Below are positions 158 through 39,377 of a stretch of DNA of 39,471 nucleotides, in pieces. Source of the stretch: Candidatus Poribacteria bacterium (GTDB taxonomy: Bacteria > Poribacteria > WGA-4E > WGA-3G). Every line of letters begins with the position of its first letter. The stretch's first letter is position 1. The notes below the pieces were generated by a model, which had not been told where the DNA came from, searched no databases, and worked only from the letters and a program-made list of their open reading frames with translations. The stretch lies in assembly GCA_009841255.1 (NCBI GenBank), contig VXMD01000013.1, positions 3,950 through 43,420 of the forward strand, read 5' to 3'. Both the position numbers and the translations under genes were made by a program.

Positions 158-3100
158 TTCCAAAAAGGCGAATTTGATGATGCTGTTCAAGACTATAGTA
201 AAGCAATAGAACTGATACCCGATTACACCGAGGCCTATAGCAATCGCGGGAATGCTTATAACGGTAAAGGTAAGATTGGTCTGGCTATCAAAGACTATGA
301 TACTGCAATACAACTTAAGCCTGATTATGCCGAGGCATATTGCGGTCGCGGCAATGCTTACACGGACAAAAATCAACTTGATGCTGCGATTAAAGACCTG
401 AACAAAGCGATAGAGTTAAATCCAGAACTTGCGGCGGCATATAACAACCGAGGCAATGTTTACGCTCAAAATGATGAATATGACCTCGCTATTCAGGATT
501 ATGACAAAGCGATAAAACTTAATCCGACACTTGCCATAGCGTATAATCATAGGGGTATTACTCATCATCAGAAAGGGAATTCTGCTGAGGCGATAAAGGA
601 TTTGGACACAGCGATAGAACTAAACCCGAATGACGGTGAAGTTCATTTTAATCTCGGAAATATTTATCAAGACAACGGCGATAGCGATCTCGCTATTGCG
701 GCCTATACCACCGCGATTAAACTCAAATTTGACCGTGCTGGTACCTATTACAGCCGAGGGAACGCGCATCGCAGCAAAGGTGATTATAGGCGTGCTATTG
801 AAGATTATATAACAGAGACACAATTGAACCCAAGCTTCACTGATGCTTACGTTAATCTTGGGGTTGCGTATCGTGCCGTCAAGCAACTTGATCTCGCTAT
901 TGAAAGTTATGCTGTGATGATAGCCCTGGATCCAAACAGCCCTCTAACTTATGAAGCCTATAATAATCGCGGTTTGGTTTATCTTGACAAAAGGGATTTT
1001 AACCTTGCTATCCAAGATTTTGAAATGGCGATAAAACTTCAGCCAGAAGCCGTTCCTGGCTACGTCAATCGAGCGGCTGTCTATCTCTCGAGAAACAGGT
1101 GGTACCTAGCTATTGAAGATTATACTAAGGTGATAGAACTAAATCCTGAACTTGTAATGGCTTATTATGGTCGAGGAACAGCGTGGTTAAGCCTAAGAGA
1201 ATGGGAAAAAGCCAAAACTGACCTAATGACTGCCAAAGATAAAGGATTAGATATTACTGCTGCGTTTCACAATATCTACAGAGGCGTTGCAGCCTTTGAA
1301 CAGAAGCACGGTGTGCAGTTACCAGAAGATATAGTCATTCTACTGAGCTCTGAAGTAAAACCTAATAAGGCAACTATCTATAATGCTCGCGGTGTTGCTT
1401 ATGTCGCAAATGGTGAGTTTGATAAAGCAATAGGAGCGTTTACCAAGGCGATAGAACTGAATTCAAAGGATGCTGGTGTATACTATAATCGCGGTCTCAT
1501 TTACTGCAATCAAAGGAAATTTCGCGAGGCAATTACTGATTTTAATATGGCAATAAACCTCAAATTTGACGGTCCACTTGTTTACTTTTTCCGCGGTATT
1601 GCTCACCGCGGCTTATTGGTTTTTGATAAAGCGATTCAAGACTTCAACACAGCGATAAGTCTTGAACCTGATTATATAGATGCCTACTACAAGCGTGGGG
1701 AAACCTACTACAATCAGAATCAGTTTGACTTTGCTATTGAAAACTATAACAGAGTCATAGAATTAAATCCCGAATTTGCATCGGCTTATTTCAATCGTGG
1801 TTTAGCTCATCATGGCAAAAATGACCTTGAGCGTGCGATCACAGACTATAATAAAGCCATAGAACTAAATCCCAAACATGCTGGTGCCTATTACAGTCGA
1901 GGGAATGCTTACAACCATATAGGCAACTTTGACCTTGCTATTGAAGACTATACCAAGGCAGTACAACTTACGCCTGATGATGCTTTCATTTATAACAATC
2001 GAGGGGTAGCTTATTTGAAAAAAGGCGAAGTTAAGAGAGCTATTGAAGACTATACCAAAGCGATAGCACTAAAACCTGATGATGCTGGTGTCTACTACTA
2101 TCGCGGAGAAGCGAGGCTACACCTGCAAGAGTGGGAGAAGGCAAAAGAAGATTTAATGACTGCCAAGAATATGGGGGTAGATATCGTCGCAACATTTCGG
2201 AACGATTATAGAAATGTTGCCGCCTTTGAGCAGAAACATCAGGTTAAATTGCCAAAAGACATCATTGCCCTCGTCCGTCAAGGTTTTAGGCACCGCTACC
2301 CCATGGTGGAGAAAACTTTAACCCCGGATGGAAGGAACTTTGAGTCGCCGGAGGTATTGGATCTGCTGCAGCTGTTCCGGGACGCTGGTCCCCCCTTGGG
2401 TGAGTATCTCAAGGTGTCCCCCTCTTTCGGTATTGAAACAGTACCCACTGAAGTGTTTGTGGTAGATGGCAAGACGCGGGATAAACTCATTGCCGAACAC
2501 CCCGCATCGGTTAATATTTTGAAACCGTTTTTACAGGGATCAGATATCAAACGCTGGCAGGCAGAGCCACAGGATCAGTGGTTAATCTTTACCTACCGCG
2601 GTATAGAGATTAACGATTATCCTGCAATCCAGAGATACTTGGGAAAATACAAAGAACTACTGAGCAAAAGAGGAAACGAACAGGAATGGTATGAACTCCA
2701 AGCATCTGTTGAGGAGGCGGAGCATTTCGCGCAACCGAAACTGGTCTGTCCAAATCTCTATAATGAGCAAACTTTCGCCGTTGAGGCTGAAGGTCTTTAC
2801 TGTGGATATACCTGTTACGTTATTCCGACCGACGAGAAGTGGCTATGCGGTTTACTCAATACACTCCCTGTGGAGTGGTTCTATTCGCAAGTATCCAAAC
2901 AATTAGATGGTGGTAAACTTGAGGCACGCAGTGATTATATCAAGCAGATTCCTGTACCTGATATCGATGCAACACAGATAGATTTGGTTCGCAAACTCGT
3001 CGATTATCTTATCTATCTTAAGAAACAACCGACAATAAACAGTAAAGATTTGGCGGACTCCCGCGACTTCGCTGTGCTTAGATATTTTGAGTGGATCATC

Positions 3101-38089: not shown

Positions 38090-38479
38090 TTAACACCCAC
38101 ACGTAACTTGCGAACCCGAAGCACCTTGCTCGCCTTTTGTTTCGTAGCCATCACGTTTCCACCAGTCTAAACCGCCCATCAACTCCTTAACCTGAAACCC
38201 CAATTTCGCCATATTTAAGGCACCTTTGGTGGAGGCGTTGCAACCGATACCATCGCAGTAGGTCACGTACACCTTGGATTTATCGAGTTCTCTTGTCGTT
38301 GCCTCGGACATTGTTCGATGTGGGATATTTATTGCTGTCGGAATGTGTTCAAGGGCATACGCCTCTGGGGAGCGTGCGTCTATGACGACGATGGGTTCCC
38401 CATTATTGAGTGCTTCAAAGAGATCCCAGGAATCGGTTTCGTAATTGAGTTTCGCCTGATAAAATTCGATGTGTCCCAT
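38090..38479 (-). CDS. Rhodanese-domain protein
   Basis: A 129-residue single-domain rhodanese (sulfurtransferase-like). IVVIDARSPEAYALEHIPTA carries the conserved substrate-side Asp-Ala-Arg, and YVTYCDGIGCNASTKGA holds the active-site Cys75 in a C-DGIG-C loop. GALNMAKLGFQVKELMGGLD-W is the usual C-terminal part. The last residues (TCGC) add two extra Cys that could act in thiol chemistry or metal binding. The gene starts 6 nt after the preceding small membrane-protein gene, whose 3' end holds an AAAAGGAG sequence about 17 bases upstream. Confidence 0.9.
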   Translation of the reverse strand: MGHIEFYQAKLNYETDSWDLFEALNNGEPIVVIDARSPEAYALEHIPTAINIPHRTMSEATTRELDKSKVYVTYCDGIGCNASTKGALNMAKLGFQVKELMGGLDWWKRDGYETKGEQGASGSQVTCGC

Positions 38480-38485
38480 AACTTT

Positions 38486-38830
38486 TTAAGCATGTCTCCT
38501 TTTTAACAATCTCCGCAGATCCAATCTCCCTTGACAGAAACCCCAGAGGATGCCGACAGCAAGCCATACCCGGAACCCTATTAATCCAATTTGCAAAGCA
38601 GAACTGTAGACCTCGCCTGCCTTACCACTGTAGCGCCCCTCTCTGGGCGGTCCCGAGTCGTAGAAATGATCGAAGTGGTCAGAATGAATAGGAATCCTAA
38701 CATCCATGATGATATGAAAAAGGTACGCCACAGCGAAAAGCCATACATAGCCCGCCACGATCCCCAGCACAGTCCTGAGAAGTAGAATTCCGACAAACCG
38801 AAGACATGTTTTGAACTTCTGTATAAACAT
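38486..38830 (-). CDS. Small membrane protein, intact member of a tandem paralog pair
   Basis: A 114-residue protein with a TM at about 10-42 (VGILLLRTVLGIVAGYVWLF) and a second TM at about 79-97 (GLIGFRVWLAVGILWGF). The polar loop (about 45-75) is rich in His and Asp. The ATG at 38830 is preferred over an in-frame start at 38935: the upstream paralog starts with the same MFxQK sequence, a purine-rich AAGGCGG lies just upstream, and the longer N-terminus would overlap the other paralog. It is followed by the rhodanese gene 6 nt later. Function unknown. Confidence 0.75.
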   Translation of the reverse strand: MFIQKFKTCLRFVGILLLRTVLGIVAGYVWLFAVAYLFHIIMDVRIPIHSDHFDHFYDSGPPREGRYSGKAGEVYSSALQIGLIGFRVWLAVGILWGFCQGRLDLRRLLKRRHA

Positions 38831-38904: not shown

Positions 38905-39249
38905 TTAAGGATGCTGCTGCCTTAGCCGTTTCCACAAATTCAATTTACCCTGAGAGAAACCCCAGATAACTCCGACGGCGAGACAAATCCAGGCTCCTGG
39001 CTATGCAACAATATCAACAATATCATAGGCTGATGCACTCATGCGCTCGTACCGTTGTGCGACTTCTGCTATACTCTGGTAGCTACCATCCATATCTCGG
39101 TAAGCGAGCTTTTCTACTATCCAAAAAATGTTGCGAGAGATGAAGGCGACGAAAGCAAGCCATAAGACTCCCGCTACAACGCCCAGTGAAACTCTCATCG
39201 ACAGAATTCCGAGGAACTGAAAGGGTGCTTTGAGTTTCTGCATAAACAT
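38905..39249 (-). pseudogene. Paralog of the downstream membrane protein interrupted by one in-frame TAG
   Basis: From the ATG at 39249 (a GGGGG tract eight bases upstream) the frame reads MFMQKLKAPFQFLGILSMRV and continues to a TAG at 39001-39003 (codon 83). The same frame then continues open to a TAA at 38905-38907. The part after the TAG (WICLAVGVIWGFSQGKLNLW) matches VWLAVGILWGFCQGRLDLRR of the next gene at the same residue numbers. With the TAG read as a residue, both genes are exactly 114 codons plus stop and align without gaps; the intact paralog has Leu at 83. A single TTG-to-TAG change would explain it. Readthrough is possible, but TAG is used as a normal stop by other genes here, so a recent nonsense mutation is more likely. 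Confidence 0.75.
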
Positions 39250-39377
39250 AGTTTCTACCCCCTGTCGTGAATTTTTTGCTTTAATATCTGGCATGCCATT
39301 TCTAAATTCTCTTTCCATGAAGTATATCACATTTTTCTTGCTTTGCCAACTGTAAATTACCTCAAATCGCCACCTAC

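Follow-up and report, generated by a model that had tools for sequence, protein, structure and literature searches.

A single in-frame TAG codon in one of two tandem small membrane-protein genes of a Candidatus Poribacteria genome, probably a recent nonsense mutation

INTRODUCTION

According to Belinky et al. (2021, PMC7918605), in-frame stop codons are widespread in bacterial genes, and frequent readthrough of them is suggested, although such stops persist mostly only on the timescale of population polymorphism. Literature searches for Poribacteria together with stop codons or pseudogenes returned nothing relevant among the matches listed. Here, we describe an in-frame TAG in one of two adjacent paralogous genes of a Candidatus Poribacteria bacterium. 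The DNA analyzed, referred to below as the window, is a stretch of 39,471 nucleotides (C13:3950-43420) from a draft genome of 5.73 Mb in 87 contigs. A first-pass annotation of this stretch, made from the sequence alone, attributed the TAG either to a very recent nonsense mutation or to occasional readthrough.

RESULTS

The interrupted gene and its intact paralogue

The upstream gene of the pair (positions 38908..39249, minus strand) encodes a small membrane protein of 114 codons with a single interruption, as seen from its translation and from comparison with an uninterrupted orthologue, about 88% identical, in G008, the closest relative, a genome assigned to the same genus. Minus-strand translation of positions 38905-39249 yields 82 codons, a TAG (39003-39001), 31 more codons, and a terminal stop, which bears out both the location and the content that the first-pass annotation gave for a single in-frame amber at codon 83 (39001..39003, minus strand). 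The TAG interrupts the second hydrophobic segment (19-residue windows with starts at 76-80) and leaves the first one whole; as had been claimed, the truncated form would retain the first transmembrane helix only. The start codon is present, with AGGGGG upstream of it. The reading frame beyond the TAG is open as far as the terminal stop, and this copy carries no further disabling change.

The downstream paralogue (38489..38830, minus strand), recognized from its translation and a BLASTP comparison with the upstream copy, is intact and also comprises 114 codons. The two proteins share 40 of 113 residues (35%; E value of 3e-22) without gaps, and the LAVG-x-x-WGF-x-QG stretch beyond the stop is common to both, in agreement with the first-pass annotation. 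That annotation also pointed to the equal length that the pair has only if the TAG is read through. The equal codon number and the gap-free BLASTP alignment hold, but the exact match in length is not evidence, because the same pair comprises 114 and 112 codons in G008 and in the related contig L023, the family ranges from 100 to 122 residues (20 aligned rows), and gaps fall between the two window copies in this 20-row alignment. The equal length is a coincidence, and the real evidence lies in the uninterrupted G008 orthologue and the synonymous-only change past the stop. Between the window and G008, the upstream copies are 88.6% identical and the downstream copies 75.9%, whereas the two copies inside one genome are 35 to 38% alike. 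The duplication therefore predates the split of the two genomes.

The locus and its surroundings

The window coincides exactly with the sequence between two 10-N scaffold gaps, one at each end. A repeat with the words GCTCCGCTGGAGC is found on either side of the right-hand gap (window 1-39471; L069 122-131), and the TAG at codon 83 lies ~470 bases from the gap that this repeated sequence borders. A large gene (L069 535-3063) adjoins the pair in the window's genome. The named genome collection yielded a single relative, a Candidatus Poribacteria metagenome-assembled genome (JAJEDB010000070.1, L023), whose version of the upstream gene is identical to that of G008; together with the genus shared with G008, this places the window in Ca. 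Poribacteria. In G008, the same gene pair occupies the corresponding place, next to the tRNA-Asn end and the dioxygenase gene. In the window, a gene for a rhodanese-domain protein (38090-38479, minus strand; Pfam E value of 2.3e-16) lies between the pair and tRNA-Asn and is absent from the matching place in G008. Scans for promoters and terminators gave results no better than those with shuffled sequences.

On the other side of the interrupted gene, a remnant of 14 codons (39255..39299, minus strand) is all that survives of a BolA-like gene (sub-cutoff Pfam match, E value of 0.006) located upstream, which G008 has in full. In L023, two adjoining small genes with similar starts occupy positions 1188-1451 and 1465-1737, and the first of these has a weak BolA-like match; the window retains only the remnant.

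The protein family and its broken members

With the alignment as the query, family matches were found in 34 of the 84 genomes of the phylum, all in two genera of one Poribacteria family. The 45 rows listed include two from G013 that represent one gene, so that there are ~44 genes. The family has only sub-cutoff matches in Pfam and no match in PHROGs or NCBIfam, and no relative was found in viral contigs. Its members resemble one another in an MF-x-Q-K-type start, an LG-VA-type first helix with W30, and WGF-x-QG in the second helix. Of the family's motifs, the latter is the most conserved, and it is positioned after the stop. A structure model from four sequences (mean pLDDT of 70.6, pTM of 0.48) has two long helices, 3-51 and 57-112.

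Copies in this family break repeatedly. Close inspection of the flagged rows revealed four visibly broken members. Besides the upstream copy in the window, these are G017, truncated close to the end of a contig; G013, with a frame shift; and G018, whose second copy is a fragment. Stops among the 44 other rows (84 genomes) occur only in G017 and G018, both at other places, and in G061, whose double TAA was considered as a second interruption but rejected as the natural end of the gene. The TAG in G018 was likewise dismissed as a parallel to codon 83, as it sits just before a fragment that does not have the first helix. This headless fragment (L092, positions ~264-452, minus strand) comes after the end of a gene similar to the terminal part of the large gene that adjoins the pair. 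Taken together, the broken family members and the BolA-like remnant indicate that gene loss is ordinary at this locus and in this family.

Codon 83 and the age of the stop

Codon 83 is TGG (Trp) in G008 and a Trp codon in G028, and the respective column over 19 aligned relatives contains W (13), L (3), S (1), I (1), and F (1). No stop occurs there in any of the 19, and among the aligned family members only the window's upstream copy has one. The relatives thus have a sense codon here; the TTG suggested in the first-pass annotation does not fit the close ones.

The tail after the stop (38908..39000, minus strand) has none of its 31 residues changed relative to G008, and all five base differences are synonymous (dN of 0, dS of 0.281). 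Before the stop, 14 bases differ in synonymous codons and 15 in replacement codons (dN of 0.080, dS of 0.322). Identity of the tail residues in spite of five synonymous differences means that the stop is either young or false. When five changes with the same transition and transversion numbers were placed at random in the tail, the protein remained unchanged in 0.0008 of trials; hence, either selection acted on the tail up to a very recent time, or it continues to act, or the stop does not exist in the organism. For a tail evolving neutrally along the whole branch since the split from G008, ~10 to 12 replacement changes would be expected. Because none is seen, a simple Poisson estimate limits the neutral time to at most roughly 0.26 to 0.30 of the branch. 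Among the placeable changes before the stop, 3 replacement and 4 synonymous ones fall on the window's branch and 7 and 3, respectively, on the G008 branch; these counts, small and leaving 14 differing codons that are not placeable, give no sign of long relaxation on the window's branch.

TAG as a termination codon in this genome

The genome encodes release factor RF1 (518.7 bits versus a 423-bit cutoff). Of 84 open reading frames of at least 180 amino acids on scaffold C13, 41 end in TAA, 27 in TAG, and 16 in TGA; inside the window, TAG ends 9 of 24 such frames. The tRNA search, in which 150 of 287 candidates were scored, gave 47 hits. ARAGORN named all but one of these, which is cut by a contig end and reads CAT, and no CUA anticodon is among them; with that many candidates scored and genome completeness estimated at 96%, a suppressor tRNA could be missed. 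The only match to PylS scored 25 bits versus a 178-bit cutoff, and the same search gave a match in 13 of 14 control genomes as well. Genome-wide recoding of TAG is rejected on the basis of RF1, the ordinary use of TAG as a stop, and the tRNAs, and pyrrolysine on that of the sub-cutoff PylS match that the control genomes share. The search for an amber suppressor tRNA proposed in the first-pass annotation therefore came back empty within the scored part of this draft genome.

DISCUSSION

The assembly has a stop, the relatives have a sense codon, the tail is conserved, and the family includes further broken members. The best reading, and a likely one, is a nonsense mutation from TGG to TAG that struck a dispensable paralogue very recently. 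A single G-to-A change would have turned Trp83 into a stop and disabled, in one lineage or strain of Ca. Poribacteria, the upstream member of two tandem genes for small two-helix membrane proteins. The resulting protein of 82 residues, terminated within the second membrane segment, would have one complete membrane helix and is probably non-functional. The presence of an intact neighbor and the family's patchy distribution suggest that loss of the upstream copy is tolerated. Of the two possibilities raised in the first-pass annotation, the nonsense mutation gains support from the TGG in the closest relative, the protein-identical tail with its synonymous-only differences, and the members broken elsewhere. 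Occasional readthrough finds no positive evidence, with no CUA tRNA among the hits, RF1 present, TAG serving as an ordinary stop, and no stop at this codon in the aligned relatives.

The base at the stop, seen in one draft genome, is presumably real in the organism. The main rival reading, unlikely but worth serious consideration, is that the TAG is a consensus error or a minority allele in the draft assembly and that the gene of the organism is intact. Such an error would look just like the pattern seen, one isolated change in front of a perfectly preserved tail, and the codon is close to one of the gaps that bound the window, beside the repeat present on both sides of that gap. However, stops arise from only 43 of the 1,026 possible single-base changes in the gene, so that a random error would have to hit an unusual site, and the reduction of the nearby BolA-like gene shows real turnover at the locus.

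The protein identity of the tail to that of G008 would also suit functional readthrough, in which the TAG yields some full-length protein and regulates its level; indeed, a conserved tail is equally expected with full-length protein from low-level readthrough as with a recent nonsense mutation. This explanation is nevertheless improbable in view of the 47 tRNA hits, none with a CUA anticodon, the presence of RF1, a PylS match no different in kind from that of the controls, and the absence of the stop from all 19 aligned relatives, and programmed readthrough is unlikely. A tolerated leaky amber that would keep the full-length upstream protein low relative to its intact neighbor, without a dedicated suppressor tRNA, is likewise improbable. 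Very little probability indeed attaches to the 82-residue one-helix form being a useful product, specialized from the neighbor: its first segment is intact and has a start codon preceded by AGGGGG, but WGF-x-QG lies beyond the stop, and the tail shows no decay, which makes the truncation too recent for a new function to have become established.

With the recent nonsense mutation as the preferred reading, the observation holds, and its biology is ordinary. In annotation, the upstream gene is to be flagged as interrupted, with no single cause assigned; beyond this, the stop has little significance. It interrupts a member of a small-protein family that carries no name in the libraries searched and that, as far as these searches show, occurs in only two genera of one Poribacteria family. 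As in recent nonsense pseudogenes, the stop occupies a position that encodes an amino acid in close orthologues and is followed by a little-changed tail free of other disabling changes. Whereas the set of Belinky et al. (2021, PMC7918605), as described there, consists of stops common to two or more species and the present stop occurs in a single genome, it resembles the single-nonsense pseudogenes and in-frame stop polymorphisms of that work in combining one in-frame stop, nearly unchanged surrounding codons, and a sense codon in close relatives.
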